Shown piece after piece: positions 4,244-36,238 of a DNA stretch of 64,000 bases. Location: positions 1,860,001-1,924,000 of the forward strand of contig NZ_CP072827.1 of assembly GCF_017916255.1 (NCBI RefSeq), written 5' to 3'. Position 1 is the first letter of the stretch. Each line of letters starts with the position of its first letter. This DNA is from Streptomyces mobaraensis NBRC 13819 = DSM 40847 (GTDB lineage: Bacteria > Actinomycetota > Actinomycetes > Streptomycetales > Streptomycetaceae). Both the position numbers and the translations under genes were made by a program. The notes below the pieces were generated by a model. That model saw only the letters and a list, made by a program, of their open reading frames with translations. It did no database searches and was not told the origin of the DNA.

Positions 4244-4266
4244 ACCCTACTTGCGGGCACTGACAA
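4244..4266 (-). promoter_or_regulatory. RecA-NDp/PafBC-type DNA-damage promoter of uvrC
   Basis: On the minus strand this reads TTGTCAGTGCC (4266-4256), six spacer bases, then TAGGGT (4249-4244). It matches the RecA-independent damage-promoter consensus of actinobacteria at the TTGTCAGTG block, the 6-nt spacer and the -10. The uvrC ATG starts 7 nt after the hexamer. Seen directly; the regulator assignment is by analogy, and no pafBC genes lie in this window. Confidence 0.85.
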
Positions 4267-4304
4267 GGCCGGTGTCGCGGCGGCCGGGAGGCTCGGCGGA
4301 CGGT

Positions 4305-4343
4305 GCTCCGGCCCCGGCGCGTGGAGGGCGCCGGGGCCGGAGC
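4305..4343 (-). terminator. Strong GC hairpin after the 4368-5222 gene
   Basis: Perfect 16-bp inverted repeat, gctccggccccggcgc at 4305-4320 and its complement at 4328-4343, with a 7-nt loop. It lies 25 bp past the stop of the minus-strand gene ending at 4368. There is no T-tract, which is usual in Streptomyces. It also insulates the uvrC promoter from read-through. Confidence 0.75.
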
Positions 4344-4367
4344 GTGTGGGGGGTTCCCGGCGTCGCG

Positions 4368-5222
4368 TCAGCGGCGCCGGAGCCTGCGGACGGCGACGGT
4401 GCCCAGGCCGAGGGCCAGGGCCGCGCCGCCGGCCGAGGCGGCCAGGGTGGTGGTGCCGGAACCGGAGTCCGACGCCGAGCCGGCGGGTTCGGCGGCGAGC
4501 GGCGCCGGGGCGTCGGCCGCCTGGGCCTCGGCTCCGGCTTCGTAGCCGCCCGCCAGGCCCTTCTTCGCGTAGGCCGAGCCGGGCAGCTTGTCGCCGTACG
4601 CCTTGTGGACGCGGTCCCGGTAGGCGTCCACGGTGGTGCCCCCGGCGCCGACGGCCCGGACGGCCTCGGGGTTCAGGGGCAGGATCCGGTCGGCGCGCTG
4701 CACGTACCAGGCGTTGACCTGGGGCTCGCGGAAGACGGTGCCGCCGCTGAGCTTCTTCGCCCCCTCGGCCGCGTAGCGCGTCTCGTCGTCACCGGTGGCG
4801 ATGTTGACGACCTTCCAGTCGGTGCCGCCGCCCGCGGTCCACACCGACGCCTTCTGGCCGTCGGCCGAGACGGCCTTGCTGGCGAGGTACTCCAGCGTGG
4901 CGACGGGCGCGTTCCGCTTGCCGGCCACGAAGTCGGGCGAGAGCGCGTAGACGGGCACGGCCGCGCCCTCGATCCGCGGCTTGGCGGCCGTCCTGGCGAT
5001 GGCGCCGTCCCGGGCGAAGAACCGGGACAGGGTGTCCAGTGTCGCGGGGGACGCCGCCGTGTCGCGGGCCGCCGCCAGCCCGGCGGCGGGCGGGGCGGGG
5101 GCCGCGGGCGGCGGTGCGGCGTGGGCGAGCGGGGTGAGGGCGAGGACGCCGGCGGTCAGGGCGCCGGTGGCCGCGACACGGGCGAACGTCCGGCCGGGAC
5201 GGTGGGTTTCACGCGTGGTCAT
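4368..5222 (-). CDS. Secreted protein with C-terminal membrane anchor, partner of the papain-like protease
   Basis: 284 residues; I do not recognise a named family. The N-terminus is a Sec signal peptide (hydrophobic from about residue 16, likely cut after AHAA near 36). The middle, about 50-215, is a globular extracytoplasmic domain with repeated Tyr/Trp and acidic residues. A Pro/Ala/Ser-rich stalk leads to a hydrophobic segment at about 258-276 and an Arg tail (RRLRRR). This layout resembles surface proteins anchored at the C-terminus, but there is no LPXTG-type motif, so it looks membrane-anchored rather than sortase-linked. The ATG at 5222 is 4 nt after the stop of the upstream protease gene, so the two are translationally coupled. 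It may present, inhibit or be processed by that protease; this is inference. Confidence 0.7.
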   Translation of the reverse strand: MTTRETHRPGRTFARVAATGALTAGVLALTPLAHAAPPPAAPAPPAAGLAAARDTAASPATLDTLSRFFARDGAIARTAAKPRIEGAAVPVYALSPDFVAGKRNAPVATLEYLASKAVSADGQKASVWTAGGGTDWKVVNIATGDDETRYAAEGAKKLSGGTVFREPQVNAWYVQRADRILPLNPEAVRAVGAGGTTVDAYRDRVHKAYGDKLPGSAYAKKGLAGGYEAGAEAQAADAPAPLAAEPAGSASDSGSGTTTLAASAGGAALALGLGTVAVRRLRRR

Positions 5223-5226
5223 GACC

Positions 5227-5889
5227 TCACCCGCCGATCCGGTAGAGCGAATGCGTCCAGGCGAACTGGTTGTTGTTGACGTACCAGCTGTGCGACGCCC
5301 AGTTGTAGCGGTTGCTGCTCGGCCACGGGTCGCCCCAGTAGACCATGCTGTTGGAGTCGTCGTAGCCGTAGACGACGTGCATGTGGCCGCCGCCGGACTT
5401 CCAGCCGATGCGCGTCTCGATGGGCCGGTTGGCGTTGATCTCGCTCTGCACGGTCGAGTAGCGCAGCCAGCCGTCCACGTACGAGCCGCTGTTGATGCCG
5501 GCCCAGCGCAGGGCGTTCTGGACGTTGCCCAGGTTGGCCTGGTTGTTGGGGCAGTCGGTGCCCTGCTGCCGGTTGAAGGCGGCGTTGCAGAACTGGTTCT
5601 GGCTGTACTTGCGGCCGAACCAGGTGGCGATGGTGTTGCCGGAGGCGGCCCAGCACCAGTTGTTCTTCTGCTGGGCCTGCATGGAGATGTTCAGCTTGTC
5701 GGCGCCGCGCAGTTCGTGGCCGGTGGGGGCGGCCGTGGCGGTGGCGGCGGGCAGCGCGATCAGCGCGGCGGCGGTGAGGGCGGCGACGGACAGTCGTCTG
5801 CCGCGTGGGCGGGGGGTGGGGGATATTCGGGGTCTGCGGTGGGCGGGGGGTATGGAGGTTCTTTCGAGCTGTGCCGAGGCACGGGACAT
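5227..5889 (-). CDS. Secreted papain-like cysteine protease (C39_2 / AvrRpt2-like fold)
   Basis: 220 residues. A long basic N-terminus and a hydrophobic stretch at about 35-54 give a signal peptide cut near ATAA. The mature part has the papain-like signature: Gln74 (oxyanion), Cys79 in NNWCWA, His169 or His171 in GGGHMHVVYGYD, and Asp187 in YWGDPW. This order Q-C-H-D, together with the VVYGYDD strand, matches the papain-like C39_2 group of secreted bacterial proteases. Several further cysteines (FCNAAF, TDCPNN) may form a disulphide. The start is secure: GGGAGGAACGTCC lies immediately before the ATG at 5889. It heads a two-gene operon with the anchored protein at 4368-5222 and is divergent from an HTH regulator. 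The substrate is unknown. Confidence 0.82.
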   Translation of the reverse strand: MSRASAQLERTSIPPAHRRPRISPTPRPRGRRLSVAALTAAALIALPAATATAAPTGHELRGADKLNISMQAQQKNNWCWAASGNTIATWFGRKYSQNQFCNAAFNRQQGTDCPNNQANLGNVQNALRWAGINSGSYVDGWLRYSTVQSEINANRPIETRIGWKSGGGHMHVVYGYDDSNSMVYWGDPWPSSNRYNWASHSWYVNNNQFAWTHSLYRIGG

Positions 5890-6073
5890 GGACGTTCCTC
5901 CCGTGGTGGGGTGGTTCGGTGGAGGAGCGCGTCCGGACGCTGGTGAGGAGCATCGGATGTTGTCGGGTGTCGGTCAACCGGCTTGAATGCGGAAGGGAAC
6001 ACCCAAGTGAACGGATCACGACGGTTGTGAACGCCCTGTGCCCGTCAGGAGGAACGCTGTCCTCCACGCGGCC

Positions 6074-6104
6074 GTGACCCCGGTCACCCCGAGTGAATAT
6101 TCAC
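6074..6104 (+). promoter_or_regulatory. Two adjacent operator-like palindromes before the HTH gene
   Basis: GTGACC-CC-GGTCAC (6074-6087, 6-bp arms) is followed 5 bp later by the perfect 12-bp palindrome GTGAATATTCAC (6093-6104). An AGGAGG ribosome site (6105-6110) abuts the second one. They lie in the intergenic region between the divergent protease operon and the HTH gene, so autoregulation or shared control is plausible (inference). Confidence 0.55.
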
Positions 6105-6120
6105 AGGAGGCAGCGAGCAG

Positions 6121-7059
6121 ATGGTACGGACCAGCACCCGGGACGCCGAGGCCGAACTGGCCCAGGCACTGCGCACCGGACCCTTCCACCTGGCACTGCG
6201 CACCGCGCTGACGGCGCGCGGCCTGGCCCTGCACCGGGTGCAGCGCAGGCTCGCCCAACGCGGCGTCACGGTCGGTGTCACCAGCCTCAGTTACTGGCAG
6301 CAGGGGGCCCGAAGACCGCGTCGCCCCGAGTCGCTGCGCGCGGTGCGCCTGCTGGAGGAGATCCTGGAGTTGCCGGCGCAGGCCCTCACCCGGTTACTCG
6401 AGCCGGTGGCCCGGCCCGCGTCCGAGCGCCCCGCCGCGCGCTCGCTGCGCGCCCTCATGGACGAGGCCCGCGCGGTGGAACGGCTCCTCGCCGAGCTGGA
6501 GACCCCCGCCGACGGCGGGCTGCACACGGTCTGCCACCTGGAGCACGTCCGCATCGGGGCGCGGCGCGAACTCCGCGGCCGCGAGTCCCACCACGTCGTC
6601 CGGGCGCACCGGGACGGTGTGGACCGCTATGTCGCCATCCACTACGGGGACGCCGGCTGCGACCCGGCCCGAATCGGCGTCCGCGCCACCGAGAACTGCC
6701 GCGTGGGACGCGTCCGGTGGCACGCTGGGGCGGGCGTCCTGGTCGCGGAGCTGCTGTTCGACACCCGGCTGCGGTGCGGTGAAACGTATCTGCTCGGCTA
6801 CGCGTTCGACGACGGGACGGGCGGCCAGAGCAGCGAGTACGTGCGCGGTTTCAGCTTCGCGGGCGGGCAGTACGTCCTCCAGGTCCGCTTCGACGCCACC
6901 GCGCTGCCCGTGCGCTGCCTCCGCTTCAGCCAGGCCACGGCGAACGCGCCGCGCGGCGGCCAGGAGGAACTGACGCTGGCGGGGCGGCATCCGGGGGTGC
7001 ACCTGGTGGAATCGGCGGTGCGGCCGGGGATCGTGGGGATCGGGTGGGACTGGTCGTGA
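6121..7059 (+). CDS. HTH (XRE-like) regulator with C-terminal sensory-type domain; carries a TTA codon
   Basis: 312 residues. Residues about 20-90 look like a lambda-repressor-type helix-turn-helix (LTARGLALHRVQRRLAQRGV followed by TSLSYWQQGARRP), with the conserved tryptophan/arginine end seen in XRE proteins that choose targets by coupling to other proteins. Residues 130-312 are a beta-rich domain without a motif I can name. AGGAGG lies 10 nt before the ATG at 6121, so the start is firm. Codon 92 (6394-6396) is TTA, the rare leucine codon read only by the bldA tRNA in Streptomyces, so translation should depend on development stage. Two palindromes lie just upstream, and the gene is divergent from the protease operon, which it may control. 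Confidence 0.78.
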   Translation: MVRTSTRDAEAELAQALRTGPFHLALRTALTARGLALHRVQRRLAQRGVTVGVTSLSYWQQGARRPRRPESLRAVRLLEEILELPAQALTRLLEPVARPASERPAARSLRALMDEARAVERLLAELETPADGGLHTVCHLEHVRIGARRELRGRESHHVVRAHRDGVDRYVAIHYGDAGCDPARIGVRATENCRVGRVRWHAGAGVLVAELLFDTRLRCGETYLLGYAFDDGTGGQSSEYVRGFSFAGGQYVLQVRFDATALPVRCLRFSQATANAPRGGQEELTLAGRHPGVHLVESAVRPGIVGIGWDWS

Positions 7060-7076
7060 ACGGCGGGCCTACGGCT

Positions 7077-7181
7077 CGTGCGGCAGGGGCGGGCCCCGGG
7101 GCGGAGGAGTCCCGACGCGGGCGGGCGGCGTTGCGGCGGGTCCATGGGCCGTGCGGCAGGGGCGGGCCCCGGGGCGGAGGA
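7077..7181. repeat. 32-bp perfect direct repeat in intergenic DNA
   Basis: A 32-bp stretch at 7077-7108 recurs exactly at 7150-7181, 73 bp downstream. It starts cgtgcggcagg and has the palindromic core gggccccggggcgg. A weaker similarity (cccgacgcg) continues after each copy. It lies between the HTH gene and the convergent Rieske gene and is non-coding. It could be a duplicated terminator or a protein-binding site. Confidence 0.7.
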
Positions 7182-7257
7182 CGAGCCCCGACGCGCGCCG
7201 TGGGCGGCCTGGCGGATCCGGCCTGAGGGATCGCCTCCCCCGAGGGCCGGATGCCGG

Positions 7258-7695
7258 TCAGCCCTTCGGGCCCGCCACCAGCCGGTCGCCGGTCACCCGC
7301 ACCGGCACCTCGGGCAGCGGCACCGAGGCCGGGCCGTGCAGCACCTTGCCGGTGTTCGCGTCGAACTTGCTGCCGTGGCAGTGGCAGACGGCCACACTGT
7401 CCTCGATCTTCGAGACGACGCAGCCGGCGTGCGTGCAGACGGCGCTGAACGCCCGGTACTCGTCCTTCTTCGGCCGGGTGACCAGGACCCGCTCCTCCCG
7501 GTAGAGCCGCGCCCCGCCGACCGGGACCTCGCCCGCCGCGCCCAGCTCGACGGGGGCGGTGGGCGTCGCGGAGGCCGCGTCGCCCTCCTTGCCGCCGCAG
7601 GCGGTGACGCCCAGCCCGGCCGCGCCCGCGAGCGCGGCCCCGCGCAGGACGGTACGGCGGGAGGCGCAGCAGGGCGCCGGCTGCGGGCTGGTCAT
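7258..7695 (-). CDS. Rieske [2Fe-2S] protein, Tat-exported lipoprotein
   Basis: 145 residues. The first residues hold a twin-arginine motif (SRRTVLRG, 12-19), a hydrophobic region and a lipobox-like VTAC with Cys33, so it is probably a Tat-exported lipoprotein on the outer face of the membrane. The Rieske cluster ligands are complete: Cys87-Thr-His89 and Cys104-x-x-His107 (in CHCHGS). This size and layout match small stand-alone actinobacterial Rieske proteins of unknown electron partner, not the large QcrA of the bc1 complex. I chose the ATG at 7695 because it starts the Tat signal and has GGGAGCC just before it; a longer frame from 7833 has no such support. It is monocistronic and convergent with the HTH gene. 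Confidence 0.88.
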   Translation of the reverse strand: MTSPQPAPCCASRRTVLRGAALAGAAGLGVTACGGKEGDAASATPTAPVELGAAGEVPVGGARLYREERVLVTRPKKDEYRAFSAVCTHAGCVVSKIEDSVAVCHCHGSKFDANTGKVLHGPASVPLPEVPVRVTGDRLVAGPKG

Positions 7696-7878
7696 GGTGG
7701 CTCCCACGGGGGTACGCCGACGGGCGGTGCCGCCGGGGCTGCTGTGACGATCGGTCCCGACGATACCGGCCACCGGCCGGGCGCCTCCGCGCGGTGCCGT
7801 ACGAGCGCGGCGGCCCGTACGGCAGTACGCCACCGGGTACGGCGTGCCCGAGCGGCGGCGGAAGGCCCCCGGGTACGC

Positions 7879-7916
7879 GTTCGGGTCCGTGCCCCCGCGG
7901 GGGTACGGACCCGAAC
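7879..7916 (-). terminator. Long perfect hairpin after uvrA
   Basis: gttcgggtccgt at 7879-7890 pairs with acggacccgaac at 7905-7916, and the inner ccccc pairs with ggggg. This makes a near-continuous stem of about 17 bp just past the uvrA stop at 7930. It is the likely uvrA terminator. Confidence 0.8.
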
Positions 7917-7929
7917 GTCGGCCCGGCTG

Positions 7930-10900
7930 TCAGGCCCGGCGCCCAGCCGCCTTCTTGGCCGGCGCCTTCTTGGCGGCCGTCTTCTTCGCCGCCGTCTTCT
8001 TCACCGCCGCCGGCTTGCCGGCCGCCGCCTTCGCGGCGGTCTTCTTCGCGGGCGCCTTCCGGCCCCCGGCACCCCGCTTGGGAGCGTCCTCCGGGTCAGG
8101 GTCGCCCACCCGCTCGCCGAGCATCTCCCGCAGGAACCGGCCGGTGTGGCTGTCCTCGACGGCCGCGACCTCCTCCGGCGTGCCCTCGGCGATGACCAGT
8201 CCGCCGTTCTTGCCGCCCTCCGGGCCCATGTCGACGATCCAGTCGGCCGTCTTGATCACATCGAGGTTGTGCTCGATGACGATCACACTGTTGCCCTTGT
8301 CGACCAGACCCGACAGCACCGAGATCAGCTTGTTGATGTCCTCGAAGTGCAGACCGGTCGTCGGCTCGTCGAGGACGTACACCGTGCGGCCCGTCGAGCG
8401 CTTCTGCAGCTCGCTCGCGAGCTTCACGCGCTGCGCCTCGCCGCCGGACAGCGTCGGGGCGGGCTGCCCGAGGCGCACGTACCCGAGGCCGACCTCGTGG
8501 AGGGTCCGCAGGTGGCGCGCGATCGTCGGGACCGCCTCGAAGAAGTCGAGCGCCTCCTCGATCGGCATGTCCAGCACCTCGGCGATGGACTTGCCCTTGT
8601 AGTGCACCTCCAGCGTCTCGCGGTTGTACCGCGCCCCGTGGCAGACCTCGCACGGCACGTAGACGTCCGGCAGGAAGTTCATCTCGATCTTGATGGTGCC
8701 GTCGCCGGAGCAGTTCTCGCAGCGGCCGCCCTTGACGTTGAAGGAGAAGCGGCCGGGCAGGTAGCCGCGGACCTTCGCCTCCATCGTCTCCGCGAAGAGC
8801 TTGCGGATGTTGTCGAACACACCCGTGTACGTGGCCGGGTTGGAGCGCGGCGTCCGGCCGATCGGCGACTGGTCGACGTGGACGACCTTGTCGACCAGGT
8901 CGTCGCCGTCCACCCGGGTGTGCCGGCCGGGGACCGTGCGGGCGCCGTGCAGCTCACGGGCCAGGTGCGTGTACAGGATGTCGTTGACCAGCGTCGACTT
9001 GCCGGAACCGGAGACACCGGTGACGGCCGTGAGCACCCCGAGGGGGAACGCCACGTCGATGTCGCGCAGGTTGTTCTCCCGGGCGCCGCGCACGGTGAGC
9101 ATGCGCTTCCGGTCGATCGGGCGCCGCAGCTCCGGAGTGGTGATGGCGCGCCGCCCGGAGAGGTACTGCCCGGTCATCGAGGCGTCGTTGGCCAGCAGCT
9201 CGGCCAGCGGGCCGCTGTGCACGACCTTGCCGCCGTGCTCGCCGGCCCCCGGGCCGATGTCCACCACCCAGTCGGCGACCTTGATGGTGTCCTCGTCGTG
9301 CTCGACGACGATCAGGGTGTTGCCCATGTCCCGTAGCCGCACCAGCGTCTCGATGAGCCGGTGGTTGTCGCGCTGGTGAAGACCGATGGACGGCTCGTCC
9401 AGCACGTACAGCACGCCGACCAGGCCGGAGCCGATCTGCGTGGCGAGCCGGATGCGCTGCGCCTCGCCGCCGGAGAGGGTGCCCGCCGCGCGGTTGAGCG
9501 AGAGGTAGTCCAGGCCGACGTCGACGAGGAAGCGGAGCCGCTCGTTGACCTCCTTGAGGACGCGCTCGGCGATCTTCTTCTCGCGGCCGGTGAGCGTCAT
9601 GTCCCGCAGGAAGTCGGCGCACTCGCTGATGGACATCGCGGAGACCTCCGCGATGGAGCGGCCCTGGATGGTGACCGCCAGCACGACCGGCTTGAGGCGG
9701 GTGCCCTCACAGGTCGGGCACGGCACCTCGCGCATATAGCCCTCGAAGCGCTCGCGGCTGGAGTCGCTCTCCGCCTCGGAGTGCCGCCGCTTGACGAACG
9801 GGATGACGCCCTCGAACGAGGTGGTGTACGCGCGCTCGCGGCCGTACCGGTTGCGGTAGCGCACCTCGACCTGCGTGCGGTGGCCGTTCAGCAGGGCCTT
9901 CTTGGCACGCTGCGGCAGTCCCGCCCAGGGGATGTCGGTGCGGAAGCCCAGCTCGTCGGCGAGGGCGGAGACCAGGCGGTGGAAGTAGTCCTTGCTCTGG
10001 CCGTGCGCCCAGGGGCTGATCGCCCCCTCGTCCAGGCTCTTGTCCTCGTCCGGGACGATCAGCTCCGGGTCGACCTCCATGCGGGTGCCGATGCCGGTGC
10101 AGTCCGGGCAGGCGCCGAAGGGCGAGTTGAAGGAGAAGGAGCGCGGCTCCATCTCCTCGAAGGAGAGGTCGTCGTACGGGCAGTAGAGGTGCTCGGAGTA
10201 CATCCGCTCACGCTCGGGGTCGTCCTCGGGGAGGTCGACGAAGTCCAGGATGACCATGCCGCCGGACAGGCCCAGCGCGGTCTCGACCGAGTCGGTCAGC
10301 CGGCGCTTCGCGCTGCTCTTGACGGTGAGGCGGTCGACGACCACCTCGATGGTGTGCTTCTCCTGCTTCTTCAGCTTGGGCGGCTCGGACAGCTGGATGG
10401 TCTGGCCGTCCACCCGGGCGCGGCTGTAGCCCTTGGTCTGAAGGTCGGAGAAGAGGTCGACGTACTCGCCCTTGCGCTCGCGCACCAGCGGCGACAGCAC
10501 CTGGAAGCGGCTGCCCTCGGGCAGCTCCAGCACCCGGTCGACGATGGCCTGCGGCGACTGCCGGGAGATCGGCCGCCGGCACTCGGGGCAGTGCGGCTTG
10601 CCGATCCGGGCGAACAGCAGGCGGAGGTAGTCGTAGACCTCCGTGATCGTGCCGACCGTGGAGCGCGGGTTGCGCGAGGTCGACTTCTGGTCGATGGACA
10701 CGGCCGGGGACAGGCCCTCGATGAAGTCCACGTCGGGCTTGTCCATCTGGCCCAGGAACTGCCGTGCGTACGAGGAGAGCGACTCGACGTAGCGGCGCTG
10801 CCCCTCGGCGAAGATCGTGTCGAAGGCGAGGGACGACTTGCCCGACCCGGAAAGACCCGTGAAGACGATGAGGGAGTCACGGGGGAGGTCGAGCGAGACG

Positions 10901-10950
10901 TTCTTGAGGTTGTGCTCGCGCGCGCCACGGACGATGAGACGGTCTGCCAC
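7930..10950 (-). CDS. uvrA: Excinuclease ABC subunit A
   Basis: About 1006 residues. UvrA is the damage-sensing ATPase dimer of nucleotide excision repair. Both ABC modules are visible: Walker [10 protein letters not shown] near the N-terminus and GVSGSGKST in the second half, each with an LSGGEAQR signature, plus Cys pairs of the zinc modules (CPDC, CPTC, CENC, CEVC). I placed the start at GTG 10950, with AAAGGTG upstream, directly before the conserved [16 protein letters not shown]; the frame from 11004 adds an unconserved leader. The last ~50 residues are a Lys/Ala-rich tail of repeated [12 protein letters not shown] units beyond the family core, resembling histone-like DNA-binding tails. 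Upstream is a degenerate LexA-like box rather than the TTGTCAGTG promoter of uvrB and uvrC. Confidence 0.97.
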
Positions 10951-11128
10951 GCCGGTCGGCACCTTTCTTGAGAAGACGAGGGGGTGCGCCGGCCCCGCCG
11001 CCACGCGACGCCGGCCCGTGATGCGGGCCCGTCGCGGCGGCAGGGGTCAGTGCGGAGCGATGCTCCCGACCCAGCCAGGGTACGAGAGCGCTGCGGCCAT
11101 CTCTCCAGGATGCCGCACATCGAGCGTA

Positions 11129-11144
11129 TAGCACGCGCGTTCGA
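11129..11144 (-). promoter_or_regulatory. Possible degenerate LexA (SOS) box upstream of uvrA
   Basis: On the minus strand this reads TCGAAC-GCGC-GTGCTA. The left half matches the actinobacterial SOS box TCGAAC-N4-GTTCGA exactly, and the right half matches in 4 of 6 bases. It lies about 180 bp before the uvrA start and 60 bp before the divergent gene at 11202. The second half-site is weak, so this is only a candidate. Confidence 0.35.
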
Positions 11145-11166
11145 TTCACGGCCGGAGTCCGACTCC

Positions 11167-11195: not shown

Positions 11196-11201
11196 CGGGC
11201 C

Positions 11202-18355: not shown

Positions 18356-20488
18356 TCAGGCGACCCCCGCCTCCTTCATCTGCCGCAGCTCCTTCTTCAG
18401 CTCGCCCACCTCGTCGCGCAGCCGCGCGGCGACCTCGAACTGGAGCTCCGCCGCGGCGGCCCGCATGCGGTCCGTCATGTCCTCGATCAGCTGGGCGAGT
18501 TCCGCCGCCGGCCGATCGGTCGCGACGGCCGCCTTCGCCTTGCCCTTCTTGCCGCCGCCCGCGGCCGTCGGGACGGGAGCCTTCCCCTTCTTCTCGCCGC
18601 CCTTGCCCTCCGCCGGCTTCCGGTAGCCCGTGCCCAGCAGCTCCTGGGTGTCGATCTCCTCGCGGACGATGGTGGCGACGATGTCACCGATCTTCTTCCG
18701 CAGCGGCTGCGGGTCGATGCCCCGCTCCTTGTTGTACGCGATCTGCTTGGCGCGGCGCCGGTTGGTCTCCTCGATGGCCTTCTCCATCGCCGGCGTGATC
18801 TTGTCGGCGTACATATGGACCTGGCCGGAGACGTTGCGCGCCGCGCGGCCGATGGTCTGGATCAGCGAGGTGCCGGAGCGCAGGAAGCCCTCCTTGTCGG
18901 CGTCGAGGATCGCCACCAGCGACACCTCGGGCAGGTCGAGGCCCTCGCGCAGCAGGTTGATGCCCACCAGGACGTCGTACTCGCCGGCCCGCAACTCGCG
19001 CAGCAGCTCGACACGGCGCAGGGTGTCGACGTCGCTGTGCAGGTAGCGCACCTGGATACCGAGCTCCAGGAAGTAGTCCGTCAGGTCCTCGGCCATCTTC
19101 TTGGTGAGCGTCGTGACCAGGACCCGCTCGTCCTTCTCGGTGCGCTTGCGGATCTCGTGCACCAAGTCGTCGATCTGGCCCTCGGTCGGCTTGACGACGA
19201 CCTCCGGGTCGACCAGGCCCGTGGGCCGGATGATCTGCTCGACGTAGCCGTCGGATTTCGCCAGCTCGTACTTCCCCGGCGTCGCCGACAGATAGACGGT
19301 CTGCCCGATGCGCTCGGTGAACTCCTCCCACTTCAGCGGGCGGTTGTCCATGGCGGACGGCAGCCGGAAGCCGTGCTCGACCAGGGTGCGCTTGCGGGAG
19401 GCGTCACCCTCGTACATGGCGCCGATCTGCGGCACGGTGACGTGCGACTCGTCGATGACGAGGAGGAAGTCGTCCGGGAAGAAGTCCAGCAGGGTGTTGG
19501 GCGGGGAGCCGGGCTCGCGGTCGTCCATGTGCAGCGAGTAGTTCTCGATGCCGGAGCAGGAGCCGATCTGCCGCATCATCTCGATGTCGTACGTGGTGCG
19601 CATGCGCAGCCGCTGGGCCTCCAGCAGCTTGCCCTGCTTCTCCATGCGCGCCAGGGTCTCCTCCAGCTCCGCCTCGATCCCGGCGATGGCCTTCTCCATC
19701 CGCTCGGGGCCGGCGACGTAGTGGCTGGCGGGGAAGACGTACAGCTCCTGATCGTCCGAGATGACCTCGCCGGTCAGCGGGTGCAGCGTGGACAGCGCCT
19801 CGATCTCGTCGCCGAACATCTCGATGCGGACGGCCAGTTCCTCGTAGACCGGGAAGATCTCGATGGTGTCCCCGCGCACCCGGAAGGTGCCCCGGGTGAA
19901 GGCCAGGTCGTTCCGCGTGTACTGGATCTCCACGAAACGGCGGAGCAGCTCGTCCCGGTCGATCTCCTCGCCCACCTTGAGCGGAACCATGCGGTCCACG
20001 TACTCCTGGGGCGTGCCCAGGCCGTAGATGCAGGACACGGAGGCCACCACGACCACGTCCCGCCGGGTCAGCAGCGAGTTGGTCGCCGAGTGGCGCAGCC
20101 GCTCCACCTCCTCGTTGATCGAGGAGTCCTTCTCGATGTAGGTGTCCGACTGCGGGACGTACGCCTCGGGCTGGTAGTAGTCGTAGTACGAGACGAAGTA
20201 CTCGACCGCGTTGTTGGGCAGGAGCTCGCGGAACTCGTTGGCGAGCTGGGCCGCGAGCGTCTTGTTGGGCGCCATGACGAGCGTCGGCCGCTGAAGCTTC
20301 TCGATCATCCACGCCGTGGTCGCCGACTTGCCGGTACCGGTCGCGCCGAGCAGGACGACGTCCTTCTCACCCGCGCGGATGCGCTTCTCCAGCTCGGCGA
20401 TGGCAGCCGGCTGGTCACCGCTGGGCTGGTAGGGGCTGACGACCTCGAAAGGCGCCACTTTGCGTTCGATCTGGGAAACGGGCCGCAT
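18356..20488 (-). CDS. uvrB: Excinuclease ABC subunit B
   Basis: 710 residues. UvrB is the helicase-like damage verifier that UvrA loads and UvrC cuts beside. Visible are Walker [14 protein letters not shown], the beta-hairpin region with [12 protein letters not shown] and [13 protein letters not shown], Walker [11 protein letters not shown], helicase motifs [15 protein letters not shown] and QTIGRAARN, and a C-terminal UVR motif ([18 protein letters not shown]) for UvrC. A ~45-residue Lys/Ala-rich insert ([16 protein letters not shown]) precedes the UVR motif. The ATG at 20488 is right for the conserved [15 protein letters not shown] and begins 6 nt after a -10 hexamer with no Shine-Dalgarno, so the mRNA should be leaderless. 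The frame continuing upstream is a shadow. Transcription should be damage-inducible through the 20495-20517 promoter. Confidence 0.98.
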
Positions 20489-20494: not shown

Positions 20495-20517
20495 ACCGTA
20501 CGACCTGCCACTGACAA
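20495..20517 (-). promoter_or_regulatory. RecA-NDp/PafBC-type DNA-damage promoter of uvrB
   Basis: On the minus strand: TTGTCAGTGGC (20517-20507), six spacer bases, TACGGT (20500-20495), then six bases to the uvrB ATG. The 11-base block equals the actinobacterial RecA-independent damage-promoter consensus. A 15-bp stretch including it (20506-20520) recurs inverted at 21718-21732 as the promoter of the WGR gene. Confidence 0.9.
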
Positions 20518-20717: not shown

Positions 20718-21680
20718 ATGCGCATCCGCCCCGCCTCCCCCGTGACCCGCACCCTCCTGGGCCTGGCCGTGACCGCCCCGGTCGCGCTGGGCCTCGTCGC
20801 ACCGGCCGCCGAGGCCGCGCCGGACACCGCTGCCACGGCACGCGCCCGGGTTCCGCTCACGATCGGGCACCGCGGGGTGCCGGTCCAGGCCCCCGAGAAC
20901 ACCCTGGCCTCCATCGACAGAGCCGCCCGGCTGGGCGTCCGCTGGGTCGAGAACGACGTCCAGCGCACCAAGGACGGCAAGCTGGTCGTCATCCACGACA
21001 CCACCCTCACCCGGACCACCGACGTCAAGAAGCGCTTCCCGGACCGGGCGCCCTGGAAGGTCGGCGACTTCACCCTGGCCGAGATCCGCAAGCTGGACGC
21101 GGGCAGCTGGTTCGACCGCCGCTTCGCCGGCGAGCGCGTCCCCACCCTGGACAGCTACCTCCGGCGCGTCGACCACAACCGCCAGAAGCTGCTCCTGGAG
21201 GTCAAGGCGCCCGAGCTGTACCCCGGCATCGAGCGCCAGCTCGTGGCGGAGCTCCGCAGGACCGGCTGGCTCGACCGGCGGCACGTCGGCGGCCGACTGG
21301 TCGTCCAGAGCTTCAACGCCGCCTCGCTCCGCGCCTTCCACGGCCTCCGCCCCGAAGTGAAGACCGGCTTCCTCGGCGCGCCGAAGCCCGCCGAACTCCG
21401 CGACTACGCCAAGTTCGCCGACCAGATCAACCCCGACCACACCAAGGTCGACGCGGCCTGGGTGCGGTCGGTGCACGGCGTCAAGGGTCCGCACGGCCGG
21501 CGGCTGGAGATCTCCGCCTGGACCGTGGACGACCCGGACCGCGCGGTCGCCCTGGCCCGCCTCGGCGTGGACGCGATCATCACCAACGCCCCGCACGTCA
21601 TCGCGGACGCGCTGGAGGAGGCCGACGAGGACACGGCCGGCCGCCCGCTCACCCTCGCCGACCTTCCCGACGCGGCCTGA
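20718..21680 (+). CDS. Secreted glycerophosphodiester phosphodiesterase
   Basis: 320 residues. A Sec signal peptide (hydrophobic 12-28, cleavage near AEAA) directs export. The TIM-barrel GDPD signature follows: [14 protein letters not shown] (catalytic His and substrate Arg, Glu of the metal site), [18 protein letters not shown] (Glu, Asp and second His), then LLLEVK and SAWTVDD near the end. It should hydrolyse glycerophosphodiesters from phospholipids or teichoic acids to glycerol-3-phosphate, helping phosphate scavenging. I chose ATG 20718 because the signal peptide begins there and CGAGGAG lies just before; the frame from 20460 is unsupported. It lies between two damage-type promoters pointing away from it, on the left to uvrB and on the right to the WGR gene, but has neither itself. 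Confidence 0.92.
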
Positions 21681-21721: not shown

Positions 21722-21744
21722 TTGTCAGTGGCACCCCCTAACGT
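21722..21744 (+). promoter_or_regulatory. RecA-NDp/PafBC-type DNA-damage promoter of the WGR gene
   Basis: TTGTCAGTGGC (21722-21732), six spacer bases, TAACGT (21739-21744). The ATG at 21796 is 51 nt further on and has GGAAGGGGG before it, so unlike uvrB, uvrC and polA this transcript has a short leader. Confidence 0.85.
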
Positions 21745-25814: not shown

Positions 25815-25848
25815 GTCAGCCTGCGGTCACCCGCGGCCGGTCAGAGCC

Positions 25849-30166: not shown

Positions 30167-30388
30167 ACGTGACCTCTGCGGTCCGGTTGCCACCGGACCG
30201 GTACTGAGCTGCGGAGACGCGGTGGCGGCCGGCCGTCCTCGCTGTTCCGCGCGGGCAGGGGTGAGCAGCATGCGCCGCACCCGGCGGAACGCTCAACGGC
30301 GGTCCGGATAGTCGGTCACCTCGTGGCCGGAACGGCGCGGCCGGGGTGCGGAACCGTCCGTTTCCGCGGGTCGGCGACACTGGTGCGC

Positions 30389-32917
30389 GTGATCCGTACC
30401 GACGTCCTCGACCGGCTTCCCGTCCGCGGTGCGCTGCCCGCGCTCGTCTCCGCCCTCGACGGGCACGGCACCGCCGTGCTCTGCGCGCCGCCCGGCACGG
30501 GCAAGACGACGCTGGTGCCGCTGGTCCTGGCCGGTCTGGTGGGGGCGCCGGGTCCGGTCCGGCGGGTCCTGGTGGCCGAGCCGCGGCGGATCGCCGCCCG
30601 CGCGGCGGCGCGGCGCATGGCGTGGCTGCTGGGCGAGGAGACCGGGGGCCGGGTGGGTTTCACGGTGCGCGGCGAGCGCAGGGTGGGGCCCGGGACCGTC
30701 GTCGAGGTGGTGACGACGGGTGTGCTGCTGCAGCGGCTCCAGCGCGACCAGGAGCTCTCCGGGGTCGACGTGGTGGTGCTCGACGAGTGCCACGAGCGGC
30801 ATCTGGACGCCGACACGGCGGCGGCGTTCCTGCTGGACGTGCGGGCCGCGCTGCGGCCGGAGCTGCGGCTGGTCGCCGCGTCGGCGACGACCGACGCCGA
30901 GGGGTGGGCGCGGCTGCTCGGCGACGCGCCGGTGGTCGCCGCCGAGGGCGTGTCGCACCCGGTGGAGACGGTGTGGGCGCCGCCGGAGCGGCCGGTGCGC
31001 CCGCCGCACGGGACGCGCGTGGACCCGGTGCTGCTGGAGCACGTGGCCGGCGTGGTGCGGCGGGCGCTGCGGGAGCGGGCGGGGGACGTGCTGTGCTTCC
31101 TGCCCGGTGTCGGCGAGATCGCCCGGGTCGCGGGGCTGCTGGGCGGCCCCGCCGAACTGGGGGCGGAGGTCCTCCAGGTGCACGGCCGGGCTCCGGCGGC
31201 CGTGCAGGAGGCGGTGCTGGCGGGCGGGTCGGGGACGCGGCGGGTGGTGCTGGCCACGGCGGTGGCCGAGTCGAGCCTGACCGTGCCGGGCGTCCGCGTG
31301 GTGGTGGATTCCGGGCTGGCCCGGGAGCCGCGTACGGACCACGCGCGCGGGCTGAGCGCGCTGGCCACCGTCCGGGCGTCGCGGGCCGCCGGCCGGCAGC
31401 GGGCGGGCCGCGCGGGGCGTGAGGCGCCGGGGACCGTCTACCGCTGCTGGGCGGAGGCCGACGAGGCGCGGCTGCCCGCCTTCCCCGCGCCGGAGATCCT
31501 GGTCGCCGATCTGGCGGGGTTCGCACTGCAAGCGGCCTGCTGGGGCGATCCGGACGCGAGCGGGCTGGCGCTGCTGGACCCGCCGCCGGCCGGCGCGCTG
31601 GCCGCCGCGCGCGCCGTGCTGACGGCCACGGGCGCCGTGGACGCGGACGGGCGCCCCACCGCGCGCGGCCACCGGATGGCCCGGCTGGGCGTGCATCCGC
31701 GGCTGGCCCGGGCCCTGCTCGACGGCGCCGCCGAGGTGGGGGCGCGGCGCACGGCGGAGATCGTGGCGCTGCTGAGCGAGGAACCGCCGCGCGAGTACGG
31801 CGACGATCTGGCCGCCGCCTGGCGGGCCGCGCGCCGGGGTGGTGACGCGTATGCCGCGCGCTGGCGGGCGGAGGCCCGGCGGCTGGAGTCGGCGCTGCGC
31901 GGCGTCTCCGAGAGAACGTCCGGGGACGCGCTCACCGATGACGCCGCCGCGGGCCTGGTCGCCGCGCTGGCGTTCCCCGAGCGGGTGGCGCGGGCGCGCG
32001 GTGAGGGCGCGTTCCTGATGGTGTCGGGGACGGGTGCCGTCCTGGGCGACGGTTCACGGCTGCGCAGCGCGCCGTGGCTGGCGGTGGCCGTGGCGGACCG
32101 TCCTGTCGCCTCGGCGTCGGCCCGGGTGCGGCTGGGCGCGGTGATCGACGAGGACACGGCCCGGGCGACCGCCGGGGCGCTGTTCGCCGAGGCGGAGGAG
32201 GTGTGCTGGTCGGCGGAGCGCGGTGACGTGGTGGCCCGGCGCGTGGCCCGCCTGGGCGCCGTCGAGCTGTCCTCGCGGCCGCTCGCCTCCCCCGACCGCG
32301 TCCTGCTCCGCGCGGCCCTGGTGGAGGGGTTGCGGGCCGAGGGGCCGGGGCTGCTGCGCTGGACTCCGGAGGCGACCGGGCTGCGGGAGCGGCTCGCGTT
32401 CCTGCACCGGGAGCTGGGCGCGCCCTGGCCGGACGTCTCCGACGAGGCACTGCTGGCGGACCCCGAGGCGTGGCTCGGTCCGGAACTGGACGCGGCGCGG
32501 CGCCGCGCCGATCTGGAGCGGGTGGACGCCCGGGCCGCCCTGGAGCGGCTGCTGCCGTGGGCGGGCGGGGAGGCGGCCCGGCTGGCCGAGCTGGCCCCGG
32601 AGCGGATCGAGGTGCCCAGCGGGTCGCGGATCCGGGTGGACTACGGGAGCGGACGGCCGGTACTGGCCGTCAAGTTGCAGGAGTTGTTCGGTCTGGAGCG
32701 GACCCCGACCGTGGCCGGCGGGCGGGTGCCCGTCCTCGTCCACCTGCTGTCACCGGCCGGGCGGCCGGCGGCGGTGACGGCGGACCTGGCCTCGTTCTGG
32801 CGCGACGGCTACCGGGCGGTCCGGGCCGAGCTGCGGGGCCGCTATCCGCGGCACCCCTGGCCGGAGGACCCGTCGACGGCGGAGCCCACGCGGCGGGCGA
32901 ACGCCCGGCGCCGGTGA
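30389..32917 (+). CDS. hrpB: ATP-dependent helicase HrpB
   Basis: About 842 residues. HrpB is a DEAH-box (SF2) helicase of unclear RNA or DNA role. Motifs in order: Walker A CAPPGTGKTTLVPL near residue 32-45, EPRRIAARAAARRMAWLLGEE (Ia), VVVLDECHERHLD (DExH, here DECH), ASATT (III), VVLATAVAESSLTVPGVRVVVDSGLAREPR (V) and RAGRAGREAPG (VI), then a winged-helix/ratchet region and the HrpB C-terminal domain. The GTG at 30389 starts IRTDVLDRLPVRGAL; 30383 (another GTG) is equally possible, and no Shine-Dalgarno is seen. It ends in a hairpin shared with the gene at 32937. Confidence 0.92.
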   Translation: MIRTDVLDRLPVRGALPALVSALDGHGTAVLCAPPGTGKTTLVPLVLAGLVGAPGPVRRVLVAEPRRIAARAAARRMAWLLGEETGGRVGFTVRGERRVGPGTVVEVVTTGVLLQRLQRDQELSGVDVVVLDECHERHLDADTAAAFLLDVRAALRPELRLVAASATTDAEGWARLLGDAPVVAAEGVSHPVETVWAPPERPVRPPHGTRVDPVLLEHVAGVVRRALRERAGDVLCFLPGVGEIARVAGLLGGPAELGAEVLQVHGRAPAAVQEAVLAGGSGTRRVVLATAVAESSLTVPGVRVVVDSGLAREPRTDHARGLSALATVRASRAAGRQRAGRAGREAPGTVYRCWAEADEARLPAFPAPEILVADLAGFALQAACWGDPDASGLALLDPPPAGALAAARAVLTATGAVDADGRPTARGHRMARLGVHPRLARALLDGAAEVGARRTAEIVALLSEEPPREYGDDLAAAWRAARRGGDAYAARWRAEARRLESALRGVSERTSGDALTDDAAAGLVAALAFPERVARARGEGAFLMVSGTGAVLGDGSRLRSAPWLAVAVADRPVASASARVRLGAVIDEDTARATAGALFAEAEEVCWSAERGDVVARRVARLGAVELSSRPLASPDRVLLRAALVEGLRAEGPGLLRWTPEATGLRERLAFLHRELGAPWPDVSDEALLADPEAWLGPELDAARRRADLERVDARAALERLLPWAGGEAARLAELAPERIEVPSGSRIRVDYGSGRPVLAVKLQELFGLERTPTVAGGRVPVLVHLLSPAGRPAAVTADLASFWRDGYRAVRAELRGRYPRHPWPEDPSTAEPTRRANARRR

Positions 32918-32928
32918 GGGCGCCGGGC
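32903..32928. terminator. Bidirectional hairpin holding the hrpB stop codon
   Basis: gcccggcgcc (32903-32912) pairs with ggcgccgggc (32919-32928). The 6-nt loop ggtgag contains the hrpB TGA (32915-32917). It lies between convergent hrpB and the small gene ending at 32937, so it can serve both. Confidence 0.75.
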
Positions 32929-32936
32929 GGGGCCGG

Positions 32937-33128
32937 TCAGGGCAGATAGCGTTCCAGCGCCGCCGCGCCCTTCTCCTCGATGTGCCGCCGGGCGGCCTCC
33001 ACCCGTTCCGGAGTGACGTCGTGCCCCGAGGCCATGACCAGGTCCTCGGGGTCGAAGGGTCGCTCACTCCCGGTGTAGAGCCGCTGCGGCGCTGATGCCG
33101 TGGACGCGTCCTCGGGACTCTCCTTCAC
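32937..33128 (-). CDS. Small conserved-type protein of 63 residues, unknown function
   Basis: 63 residues, acidic to neutral, with no membrane segment: an N-terminal Ser/Thr-rich part (ESPEDASTASAPQRLYTGSE), RPFDPEDLVMASGHDVTPERV, and a C-terminal helix EAARRHIEEKGAAALERYLP. GAGGAGG lies just before the GTG at 33128, a perfect ribosome site, and the codons show the expected GC bias, so I think it is real. Much longer open frames across this DNA are shadows of polA. I do not recognise a function. It lies between hrpB (convergent) and polA (same strand, upstream), separated from polA by a large hairpin. Confidence 0.72.
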   Translation of the reverse strand: MKESPEDASTASAPQRLYTGSERPFDPEDLVMASGHDVTPERVEAARRHIEEKGAAALERYLP

Positions 33129-33285
33129 GGCGAGCCTCCTCTGCTCCGCGGTCCCCCTCCCCGGGGGACCGGCCGTTCGGGTTTCCCTCCATCGTGTGAC
33201 ACGGATCGGGCGTGCGCACACCGATCTCCCCGGAAAAACTTCCGTCTCCCCCGAAACACCGGCCCGGTGCGCCTCCGGAAACGCG

Positions 33286-33334
33286 CGCACCCGCCGACGG
33301 CCGGTACGTGGTCGGTACCGGGTCGGCGGGTGCG
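33286..33334 (-). terminator. polA terminator hairpin
   Basis: cgcacccgccgac (33286-33298) pairs with gtcggcgggtgcg (33322-33334). An inner ccggtac/gtaccgg stem completes a two-stage hairpin 22 bp past the polA stop. Confidence 0.8.
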
Positions 33335-33355
33335 GCTCGGGCGGCCTCAGTGGGC

Positions 33356-36208
33356 TCAGTGAGCGGCGGACTCCCAGTCGCCGCCGACGCCGACCGACAC
33401 GTCGAGCGGGGCCCGCAGGCTCACGGCCCCGGCCATCTCCCGGCGCACCAGCTCCTCGACCTTCTCCCGCTCGCCGGGGGCCACCTCCAGCACGATTTCG
33501 TCGTGCACCTGGAGCAGCATCCGGGTGGCCAGCTTCTCCTTCTCCAGCGCCTCGGCCACCCGCAGCATGGCGACCTTGACGATGTCGGCGGCGGTGCCCT
33601 GGATGGGCGCGTTGAGCGCCATGCGCTCCGCCATCTCCCGCCGCTGGCGGTTGTCGCTGTTGAGGTCGGGCAGGTAGCGGCGGCGGCCGAGCATCGTCTC
33701 GGTGTAGCCGGTGGCGCGGGCCTCCTCGACCACCCGGCGCAGGTAGTCGCGCACTCCGCCGAACCGCTCGAAGTAGGTGTCCATCAGGCCGCCCGCCTCG
33801 CCCGGGGAGATCCCGAGCTGCTGCGAGAGACCGAACGCGGACAGCCCGTAGGCGAGCCCGTACGACATGGCCTTGATCTTGCGCCGCATCTCCGGGTCGA
33901 CCTCGGTCTTGGCCACGCCGAAGACCTGGGAGGCGACCGTGGTGTGCAGGTCCTCGCCGGAGGTGAACGCCTCGATGAGGCCCTCGTCCTCCGACAGGTG
34001 GGCCATGACGCGCAGTTCGATCTGGCTGTAGTCGGCCGTCATCAGCGACTCGAAGCCCTCGCCGACCACGAAGCAGCGGCGGATGCGGCTGCCGTCGCCG
34101 GTGCGCACCGGAATGTTCTGCAGGTTGGGGTCGGTGGAGGACAGCCGGCCGGTGGCGGCCACCATCTGGTTGAAGGTGGTGTGGATCCGGCCGTCCGCCG
34201 CCAGGTTGTTGATCAGGCCGTCGACGGTCGTCTTGAGCTTGGCGCGGTCGCGGTGGCGCAGCAGGACGACCGGCAGCTCGTTCTCCGTCTGGGCGGCGAG
34301 CCAGGCCAGCGCGTCGGCGTCGGTGGTGTAACCGGTCTTGATCTTCTTGGTCTTGGGCAGGCCGAGCTCCTCGAAGAGGATCTCCTGGAGCTGCTTGGGC
34401 GAGGAGAGGTTGAACTCGCGGCCGGCGGCGCGGTGCGCCTCGGCGACGGCCTGCTCGATCTCGCCCAGGTACTCCTCGGACAGCCGCTCCAGGCGGGCCC
34501 GGTCGACGGCGATGCCCTCGCGCTCCATGGCGACGAGCAGGTCGCCGACCGGGAGCTCCAGGTCGCGCATCAGCTCCAGCGCGCCCGTGCCGGCGAGCTT
34601 CCGCTCGTAGAAGACGCCCAGGTCGAGGACCGCGCGGGCCTCGATCATCAGCTTCTCGGCGGCTTCCTTGTCGGCCGTGCCGTCGAAGTCGAACGCCTGC
34701 TGGCCGGCCTCGGCCTTGTCGGGGTCGACGCGCGGGAGGGACCGGCCGAGCTTGTCCTCGACCAGCACCTCCAGCTCGGTGAGCTGGCGCTTGCCCTTGT
34801 TGATACGGACCTTGCCGGCCCGCTTCTGCCGGTGGCGGTTGAGCGGGTCCGTCTCGAACGGCCGGGAGCCCGGCTCGTCCAGGTAGGCGGCGACGGCGGT
34901 GTCCATGGTGACGCCCTCGACCCGCCAGCCGCGCTCGGCGAAGACGCGGACCACGCGCTTGCCCATGTGCAGCACCTTGGGGCGGTCCGCGTCGGCCAGC
35001 CAGGCGGCGAACGCCCGGTCGTCGTCCTCGGACAGCTCCTGCGGGACGAACCAGCAGGCCCGGTCGTCCGGCAGGGCCAGCGCCACCTCGTGGACGTCGC
35101 CCGAGCCGAGCTTCCAGTCGTAACCGGCGACCACGGCGGCCGGCACGTCCGCCGGGATGTCGGCCAGCCAGCCGGCCAGCTCGCCCTGGCCCAGCATCCG
35201 GCCGTCCAGTTCGATCTCCAGCTCCTCGGCCGCCTCCTCGACGACCGCGGCCGGGTCCGTGCCCCACAGCCGGTCGCGCAGGCTCCGGTTGCGGATCTCC
35301 AGGCGGTCCAGCAGCCCGCCGAGCGCGGTGAGGTCGTACGCCTCCCGGACCAGCCCCTCCGGGCCCGTCGACAGCTCGACGTCCCGCACCATCTCGGTGA
35401 GGCGGCGGTTGAGCTTGACCGCCTCCAAGTGCTCCCGCAGGTTCTGCCCGGCCTTGCCCTTGACCTCGTCGGCCCGCTCCACCAGCTCCGCGAACGAACC
35501 GAACTGGTTGATCCACTTCGCGGCGGTCTTCTCGCCGACGCCCGGGATGCCCGGCAGGTTGTCCGACGGGTCGCCGCGCAGCGCCGCGAAGTCCGGGTAC
35601 TGGGCGGGCGAGAGGCCGTACTTCTCCTGGACCTTCTCCGGCGTGAAGCGGGTCAGCTCCGAGACGCCCTTCGTCGGGTAGAGCACCGTGACTGCGTCGC
35701 TGACGAGCTGGAACGAATCCCGGTCGCCGGTGACGATCGACACCTCGAAGCCCTGGGCCTCGGCCTGGACCGCCAGGGTGGCGATCACGTCGTCCGCCTC
35801 GTACCCGTCGACGGCGAAGCGCGGCACCCGCATGTGGTCCAGCAGCTCGCCGATCAGCTCCACCTGCCCCTTGAACTCGTCGGGGGTCTTGGACCGGGTC
35901 GCCTTGTACTCCGCGTACTCCTCGGAACGCCACGTCTTGCGCGACACGTCGAACGCCACCGCGAAGTGCGTGGGGCTCTCGTCACGCAGGGTGTTCGCGA
36001 GCATCGACGCGAAGCCGTACACCGCGTTCGTCGGCTGGCCGCCGGAGGTCGTGAAGTTCTCCGCGGGCAGCGCGAAGAAGGCCCGGTAGGCCATGGAATG
36101 CCCGTCCATCAGGAGCAGGCGGGGACGGCCTCCCGTACCTCCCCCCGCGGCCTCGGGGCCGGTCGGCTCGGTCGCGTCGGACGGTGATTTCGATGCCTTT
36201 GCTGCCAC
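33356..36208 (-). CDS. polA: DNA polymerase I
   Basis: About 950 residues. Pol I fills gaps in excision repair and removes Okazaki primers. The N-terminal 5'-3' exonuclease (LLLMDGHSMAYRAFFALP, YEADDVIATLA, TGDRDSFQLV, PGVGEKTAAKW) is intact. The middle domain (about 335-530) lacks the DxE motif of proofreading exonucleases: where it should be stands VVAGYDWKLGSGDVHEVAL, so 3'-5' proofreading is probably absent, as in several actinobacterial and Taq-type enzymes. The polymerase domain is complete: motif A TADYSQIELR with Asp726, motif B RRKIKAMSYGLAYG, motif C QVHDE with His902-Asp903. The GTG at 36208 lies 7 nt after a -10 hexamer with no Shine-Dalgarno, so a leaderless, damage-type transcript is likely. 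It is divergent from the molybdoenzyme gene. Confidence 0.97.
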   Translation of the reverse strand: MAAKASKSPSDATEPTGPEAAGGGTGGRPRLLLMDGHSMAYRAFFALPAENFTTSGGQPTNAVYGFASMLANTLRDESPTHFAVAFDVSRKTWRSEEYAEYKATRSKTPDEFKGQVELIGELLDHMRVPRFAVDGYEADDVIATLAVQAEAQGFEVSIVTGDRDSFQLVSDAVTVLYPTKGVSELTRFTPEKVQEKYGLSPAQYPDFAALRGDPSDNLPGIPGVGEKTAAKWINQFGSFAELVERADEVKGKAGQNLREHLEAVKLNRRLTEMVRDVELSTGPEGLVREAYDLTALGGLLDRLEIRNRSLRDRLWGTDPAAVVEEAAEELEIELDGRMLGQGELAGWLADIPADVPAAVVAGYDWKLGSGDVHEVALALPDDRACWFVPQELSEDDDRAFAAWLADADRPKVLHMGKRVVRVFAERGWRVEGVTMDTAVAAYLDEPGSRPFETDPLNRHRQKRAGKVRINKGKRQLTELEVLVEDKLGRSLPRVDPDKAEAGQQAFDFDGTADKEAAEKLMIEARAVLDLGVFYERKLAGTGALELMRDLELPVGDLLVAMEREGIAVDRARLERLSEEYLGEIEQAVAEAHRAAGREFNLSSPKQLQEILFEELGLPKTKKIKTGYTTDADALAWLAAQTENELPVVLLRHRDRAKLKTTVDGLINNLAADGRIHTTFNQMVAATGRLSSTDPNLQNIPVRTGDGSRIRRCFVVGEGFESLMTADYSQIELRVMAHLSEDEGLIEAFTSGEDLHTTVASQVFGVAKTEVDPEMRRKIKAMSYGLAYGLSAFGLSQQLGISPGEAGGLMDTYFERFGGVRDYLRRVVEEARATGYTETMLGRRRYLPDLNSDNRQRREMAERMALNAPIQGTAADIVKVAMLRVAEALEKEKLATRMLLQVHDEIVLEVAPGEREKVEELVRREMAGAVSLRAPLDVSVGVGGDWESAAH

Positions 36209-36215
36209 GCCCCCG

Positions 36216-36238
36216 ATCCTGCCACGACCCACTGACAA
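36216..36238 (-). promoter_or_regulatory. RecA-NDp/PafBC-like promoter of polA
   Basis: On the minus strand: TTGTCAGTGGG (36238-36228), six spacer bases, CAGGAT (36221-36216), then 7 nt to the GTG at 36208. The upstream block is nearly perfect; the -10 begins with C rather than T, so it may be weaker than those of uvrB and uvrC. Confidence 0.75.

Follow-up and report, generated by a model that had tools for sequence, protein, structure and literature searches.

Predicted RecA-NDp promoters of the PafBC class upstream of repair genes, a WGR-propeller gene and one group of cas3 operons in Streptomyces

We analyzed a window of 64,000 nt within the 7.57-Mb chromosome of Streptomyces mobaraensis, in which uvrC, uvrB, polA and a gene for a WGR-beta-propeller protein are each preceded by a site that is very probably a RecA-NDp promoter of the PafBC class, the WGR gene being a conserved, optional member of the set. 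The mycobacterial consensus of this class is TTGTCRGTG-N8-TAnnnT. A sequence-only reading of the stretch had proposed that the four genes share such a promoter, and all four sites were found where it had placed them (Table 1). The sites of uvrC, uvrB and the WGR gene match TTGTCAGTG-N8-TAnnnT, a pattern that 100 shuffles of the window did not produce once. The polA site reads TTGTCAGTG-GGTCGTGG-CAGGAT, with the spacing of the other three and a weaker -10. What had been described as two bases followed by a six-base spacer is thus a single fixed spacer of 8 bases, and the common -10 hexamer stands as TAnnnT for the first three sites and not for polA. The uvrB and WGR copies do have a 15-bp block in common (CCGTTGTCAGTGGCA, by eye). 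The -26 element TTGTCRGTG by which RecA-NDp/PafBC promoters are recognized is present in all four sites. A one-mismatch search of the window with this 9-mer alone stayed at chance level (7 found, 5.2 expected), so that specificity arises from the 9-mer, the fixed spacing and the -10 together.

A scan of the host genome, which had been named as a check on the proposal, placed the motif far above chance. We found 29 exact matches, every one with a spacer of 8 when spacers of 6–10 were allowed, against 0.02 expected from the first-order composition of the window and 0 matches to the reversed pattern. A relaxed form of the motif gave 114 matches in this genome and 7 in reverse. In a survey of Streptomyces all 101 of 101 genomes carried the motif, with 3–40 sites each, and the reversed pattern had 5 matches over all of them. 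PafB (WYL/WCX) and PafC (HTH_PafC) are encoded a few genes downstream of PafA in the host genome; together with the abundance of the motif this bears out the assignment of the sites to the RecA-NDp/PafBC class. At 18 of the 29 sites a frame of 60 codons or more opens with ATG or GTG 5–8 nt after the motif, a count that includes at least one start in the wrong frame (WGR), compared with 408 of 5800 random positions. Many of the messages should therefore be leaderless.

We determined the conservation of the WGR promoter with the relaxed motif nTGTC[AG]GT-N10-A-N3-T. All 80 named WGR loci, kept from 296 relatives, carry it upstream of the gene, 71 of them as TTGTC[AG]GTG; the names of the relatives include Nocardia, Nonomuraea, Streptosporangium, Micromonospora, Actinoplanes and Kitasatospora. 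It is also present in 30/30 further Streptomyces loci, whose species may overlap with the named 80, and in 7/7 WGR loci of another family, represented by two genera and judged Nocardia-type from protein matches. Among these seven, ATGTCGGTG is found in only three, the rest varying at the first and last base or having A for G. A WGR gene was found in 54 of 150 Streptomyces genomes, and the promoter was checked in 31 of these 54, our own included; two loci (L139 and L153) are cut by contig ends. In the 80 named promoters the motif columns are 98% identical and the flanks 38%, where about 30% is expected at this G+C content, both figures being computed on the rows that bear the pattern. Since the promoter is retained while the neighborhood of the WGR gene varies, it belongs to the gene and not to the neighborhood. 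Use of such a promoter by this protein, suspected earlier to be undescribed, is thus conserved, and no description of it turned up in the literature searched. Judged by its upstream sequence, the WGR gene is a conserved but optional member of the predicted regulon.

For the other genes we compared 20 Streptomyces regions of about 60 kb, taken from 40 polA-bearing genomes and picked for long contigs. The relaxed motif lies upstream of polA in 18/20 regions, of uvrB in 15 of the 17 in which the gene was found, and of uvrC in 4 of 13. Near-variants account for the two misses at polA and the two at uvrB, one example being a spacer of 7 in uvrB of G005, and TGTC stands at the same place upstream of uvrC in 12/13 regions (by eye). 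The shared promoter is well retained for uvrB, polA and the WGR gene and weakly for uvrC. uvrA, which had been counted as part of the same regulon, does not belong to it: allowing one mismatch still gave no site near uvrA within the window, the motif precedes uvrA in 0/14 relatives, and its membership was rejected. Upstream of uvrA we found instead an element conserved in 14 relatives, mostly as TCGAATGYGCGTGCTATA (TCGAATGYGCGTGCTATAnGCTCG). Set beside the LexA box form, tCGAAC-N4-GNNCGa-like, the uvrA upstream region reads TCGAACGCGCGTGC here and mostly TCGAATGYGCGTGC in relatives, so the element may be a variant LexA box or another promoter. LexA has been reported to bind a uvrA SOS box in S. 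venezuelae (PMC9380542). A LexA box overlapping the uvrB -10 (TCGTACGGTGGTTC) was considered as well and rejected, the tested box form being present in 1/17 relatives.

The idea that the genes form a repair regulon unit within one 36-kb segment did not hold either. uvrB occurs in 12 of 85 WGR loci examined with flanks of 1.5–3 kb, and of the 9 genomes with a WGR gene among the 20 regions of about 60 kb, 2 have it inside the polA-uvr region. With the location of the WGR gene varying, a physical unit of the four genes was rejected, and their clustering in the window is incidental.

These comparisons also bear on whether the sites could be chance occurrences, or sequence kept along with its surroundings by common descent. 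The relatives share ancestry, which makes their sites not independent. Yet flanking sequence is only 38% identical around the WGR promoters and 30% around ten cas3 promoters treated below, with about 30% expected, against 98% for the motif columns in both sets; the reversed-pattern controls are near zero in the host genome and in the 101 Streptomyces; the WGR gene retains the motif at different loci; and the motif is present in 0/14 uvrA and 0/20 other cas3 upstream regions. The identity, control and locus counts refute this explanation, to which we give practically no weight.

The polA site belongs to a second form of the promoter. TG stands at the extended -10 position in 14 of 30 sites with TGTCAGTG and no TAnnnT, and at none of the 29 canonical sites (p 1.7e-5 by Fisher's test). 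The test was performed after the pattern had been noticed and on 30 sites taken from the 100 listed of the 114 relaxed places. This form, TGTCAGTG-N5-TG-N-(C/G)AnnnT, combines a weak -10 with an extended TG, and its targets include polA, a NADAR gene and ferrochelatase. The polA version, CGTGGCAGGAT, is retained in 18/20 relatives (by eye). Besides polA there are 13 such sites; a scan of 8 of their downstream frames assigned 6 to families, namely NADAR, ferrochelatase, mycothiol-S-transferase, ABC ATPase, AAA ATPase and a second DUF7691 protein. DUF7691 proteins (L020 and L304) are found behind RecA-NDp-type sites twice in this genome. Because they stand behind both -10 forms, they support a single regulon.

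We also considered whether an alternative sigma factor, and not PafBC with the housekeeping sigma factor, recognizes the motif. The motif was recovered as a putative sigma-factor site in the 2008 SIGffRid paper (PMC2375139), and its -10 falls into two sub-classes, TAnnnT and TGn-(C/G)AnnnT. TTGTCA is separated from the -10 by 11 bases, a distance that suits a -26 element and falls short of that for a -35 box; the -10 sequences resemble the housekeeping type; and in a survey of the phylum (296 genomes) the motif occurs in 9/9 Streptomyces and 11/17 others of the class, as against 50/270 outside it. An alternative sigma factor is accordingly very unlikely. PafBC has been described as activated by single-stranded DNA, PafB sitting at the -26 motif and PafC at sigma domain 4 (PMC11804915), and the M. 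smegmatis PafBC motif closely resembles RecA-NDp (PMC8223512). If the M. smegmatis mechanism applies, TTGTCAGTG would be the -26 element, with the -10 eight bases on. DNA damage or invading DNA would expose single-stranded DNA that binds the WYL domains of PafBC, which would then link this -26 element to the housekeeping sigma factor, the element standing in for a -35 box. Over half of the targets seem to begin 5–8 nt after the -10, so that many transcripts would be leaderless. The set switched on in this way may comprise recA, uvrC, uvrB, polA, uracil-DNA glycosylase, ruvC, the radA-like gene, two UvrD helicases, dnaX, the AlkZ-like glycosylase gene, the macrodomain gene, SWIM/MoxR and the type I-E cas operon. 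Both PafBC dependence and induction by damage are expected in Streptomyces by analogy with mycobacteria.

By Pfam or NCBIfam match, 12 of the 29 exact sites precede repair, recombination or replication genes: recA, uvrC, uvrB, uracil-DNA glycosylase, ruvC, a RecD2-type helicase-domain protein, an exonuclease with BRCT, AlkZ-like, dnaX, a radA-like ATPase and two UvrD helicases. A further four encode the WGR protein, a macrodomain protein, a SWIM protein and Cas3. The macrodomain protein (L002) matches structure 5e3b with an E value of 1.3e-75, a structure which we take to be SCO6735. It and the NADAR protein (L315) are two predicted ADP-ribose-related proteins behind RecA-NDp-type sites, and a possible link to DNA ADP-ribosylation is worth testing. 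For SCO6735 of S. coelicolor, which has a RecA-NDp promoter, a 5-fold induction by UV has been reported (PMC5087735).

Several observations weigh against a PafBC-controlled damage regulon of this kind. No evident repair link was found for 13 of the 29 targets, of which 5 have no or a weak family match and 8 have a family (HAD hydrolase, penicillin-binding protein, ABC permease, protein kinase, DUF7691, GNAT/CoA-ligase protein, lactonase and DUF6412); targets were picked by a reading-frame heuristic. The uvrC site is the weakest of those compared, retained in just 4 of 13 relatives, and the response does not require a WGR gene, since only 54 of 150 Streptomyces have one. Outside the class, the 50/270 genomes with the motif, mostly with single matches, compare with 27/270 for the reversed pattern (hand count), so that single sites mean little there. 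PafBC dependence is established in mycobacteria only. Finally, PMC9380542, a paper of 2022, reports an initial motif search in which the M. smegmatis motif was not found or conserved in S. venezuelae; its presence in 101/101 Streptomyces genomes argues against non-conservation as a general statement.

Two further target loci were examined among relatives. The gap between a SWIM-DUF5691 operon and the divergent MoxR-DUF5682-VWA operon holds one RecA-NDp site for each. In 30 loci from 56 SWIM-bearing genomes these sites are conserved in 30/30 and 29/30 Streptomyces loci, with both sides present in 29/30. In E. coli, MoxR, VWA, SWIM and WGR genes stand together in the yeh region, which would tie the WGR gene to the SWIM/MoxR module.

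The second locus is a type I-E CRISPR-Cas operon (L114) with cas3, cse1, cse2, cas7, cas5 and cas6 and a regular array upstream of cas3, consisting of five copies at 61-bp spacing and one degenerate repeat (by eye). We examined 30 cas3 loci of 49 matches. The ten most similar, our own included, carry the motif, nine with the exact TTGTCAGTG-N8-TAnnnT pattern and one with CTGTCAGTG; in one of them (L163) a run of N lies between motif and match. The motif was found upstream of 0/20 less similar cas3 loci, so control of all Streptomyces cas3 genes by this promoter was rejected. On an unrooted cas3 tree a branch with support 100 separates 13 rows, 10 of them with the motif, from 17 rows of which 0 have it; two changes suffice to explain this distribution, and a number as low as this was reached in 0 of 500 shuffles. 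The sites might merely hitchhike with a mobile cas locus, in which case damage would not control CRISPR immunity, and their absence from 3 of the 13 rows on the motif side fits such a history. Against this, ten cas3 genes retain the site despite diverged flanks, nine of them with only 52–71% identity to our own, and we consider hitchhiking unlikely. If control by PafBC is accepted, PafBC may sense single-stranded DNA from replicating phage, from entering DNA or from Cas3's own digestion, and so activated would switch on the cas3-led operon along with the repair genes in a feed-forward loop. That immunity in one Streptomyces type I-E group is wired into the RecA-independent damage response, with the WGR-propeller protein and the SWIM-DUF5691/MoxR-DUF5682-VWA module as damage-induced machines for DNA-end handling or defence in the same regulon, is a proposal for which we see the balance as even.

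The WGR protein itself matches PF05406 with 64.7 bits against a gathering score of 22 and is the product of the sole WGR gene found in the host genome. It is arranged as a WGR domain (about 13–81), a propeller (about 105–380) and a small C-terminal beta domain. An AlphaFold2 model (mean pLDDT 76.5) predicts a BamB/PQQ-like propeller fold, phmmer matched the protein to structure 2ra8, and the counterpart in S. huiliensis is 96% identical. A search of its 484 aa for an ADP-ribosyltransferase catalytic domain, as found in PARPs, gave no Pfam match at E 0.001. WGR domains of PARPs bind DNA breaks. By this analogy the protein, most likely made upon damage, probably acts at DNA ends, where the WGR domain would hold ends or nicks and the propeller would provide a docking surface. 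It could also be induced by damage and yet not act on DNA, the name molybdenum metabolism regulator, which databases give to some relatives, or another role being the correct one. The core of the domain reads RYGRIG and not W-G-R, invariant in 16 aligned rows; with a narrow pattern 167 of 238 proteins have RYGRIG and 10 RFGRIG, 61 being unmatched. Some regulon targets, too, have no repair role. The nearest known WGR role, however, is the binding of DNA breaks in PARPs, the promoter is retained in two distant families, and the molybdenum name probably stems from E. coli MolR by the domain only. We regard a role away from DNA as unlikely, though quite conceivable.

Within the window a fifth TTGTCAGTG was rejected as a promoter for want of a fitting -10 and is probably non-functional. 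Its surroundings, TTGTCAGTGGGGTGGTG at 55371–55387, agree over 17 bases with the MoxR-side promoter. For polA, a longer open reading frame (to 36250) would pass through the promoter.

Table 1. Features of the window and of two further loci; promoters are predicted
Feature	Position	Strand	Remarks
RecA-NDp promoter of uvrC	4244..4266	-	TTGTCAGTGCCCGCAAGTAGGGT; -10 TAGGGT; ATG 7 nt downstream
uvrC	2212..4236	-	NF001824, 1122 bits
RecA-NDp promoter of uvrB	20495..20517	-	TTGTCAGTGGCAGGTCGTACGGT; -10 TACGGT; ATG 6 nt downstream
uvrB	18356..20488	-	NF003673, 1079 bits
RecA-NDp promoter of WGR gene	21722..21744	+	TTGTCAGTGGCACCCCCTAACGT; -10 TAACGT; start codon 51 nt downstream
WGR-beta-propeller protein, 484 aa	21796..23250	+	Pfam PF05406, 64.7 bits
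RecA-NDp promoter of polA	36216..36238	-	TGn extended -10, hexamer CAGGAT; GTG 7 nt downstream
polA	33356..36208	-	NF004397, 1022 bits
uvrA	7930..10950	-	Pfam UvrA domains; outside RecA-NDp set
LexA-box-like element upstream of uvrA	11131..11144	-	TCGAACGCGCGTGC
Glycerophosphodiester phosphodiesterase gene, between uvrB and WGR gene	20718..21680	+	PF03009; without own RecA-NDp site in the window site list
Fifth TTGTCAGTG	55371..55379	+	at 3' end of minus-strand open reading frame; no fitting -10
Exact RecA-NDp promoter between type I-E CRISPR array and cas3	L114 7007-10070; own genome C1 about 6085006-6088069; also L155-L163		
Back-to-back RecA-NDp promoters, SWIM/MoxR	L113 8262-16321; own genome C1 about 4557261-4565320	divergent	

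Membership of uvrB and polymerase I was already predicted in 2008 for S. coelicolor (PMC2375139). The links to the WGR gene, to SWIM/MoxR and to cas3 are new as far as our searches of open-licence literature reach; the 67-gene table of 2008 may hold WGR or SWIM/MoxR. The RecA/LexA-independent damage response of Streptomyces, a stated open question, becomes testable through a named motif, promoters and genes, and the distribution of the motif predicts the opposite of the published S. venezuelae motif search. The WGR-propeller family, for which no role was found in the literature searched, gains a strong link to DNA damage, and the cas3 promoters suggest a simple route whereby DNA damage could raise CRISPR-Cas levels.

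In comparison with known systems, the mycobacterial PafBC regulon has in common with the predicted one a -26 motif read by PafB, repair targets and the position of pafBC near pafA (PMC8223512, PMC11804915). It differs in that the Streptomyces sites are mostly TTGTCAGTG, many leaderless messages are expected, and the members include WGR, SWIM/MoxR and cas3. RecA-NDp promoters were first described in Streptomyces, and the same type of motif is known from the S. rimosus recA promoter, quoted as TTGTCAGTGGC-N6-TAGggT (Ahel 2002, in PMC2375139), and from the 67 S. coelicolor genes with related motifs in the same paper, where the uvrB and polymerase I genes are already included. The LexA regulon of S. 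venezuelae likewise places recA, ruvC and uvrA under DNA-damage control, with a different operator (PMC9380542). SCO6735, whose relative is the macrodomain protein found here, shares the RecA-NDp promoter and is a DNA ADP-ribose hydrolase without a WGR domain (PMC5087735, PMC9411070). As to the protein, the WGR domain is common to PARPs, to E. coli proteins of the MolR/YehI type and to 2ra8; compared with the PARP and MolR types, it is here fused to a beta-propeller, and no catalytic domain was found.

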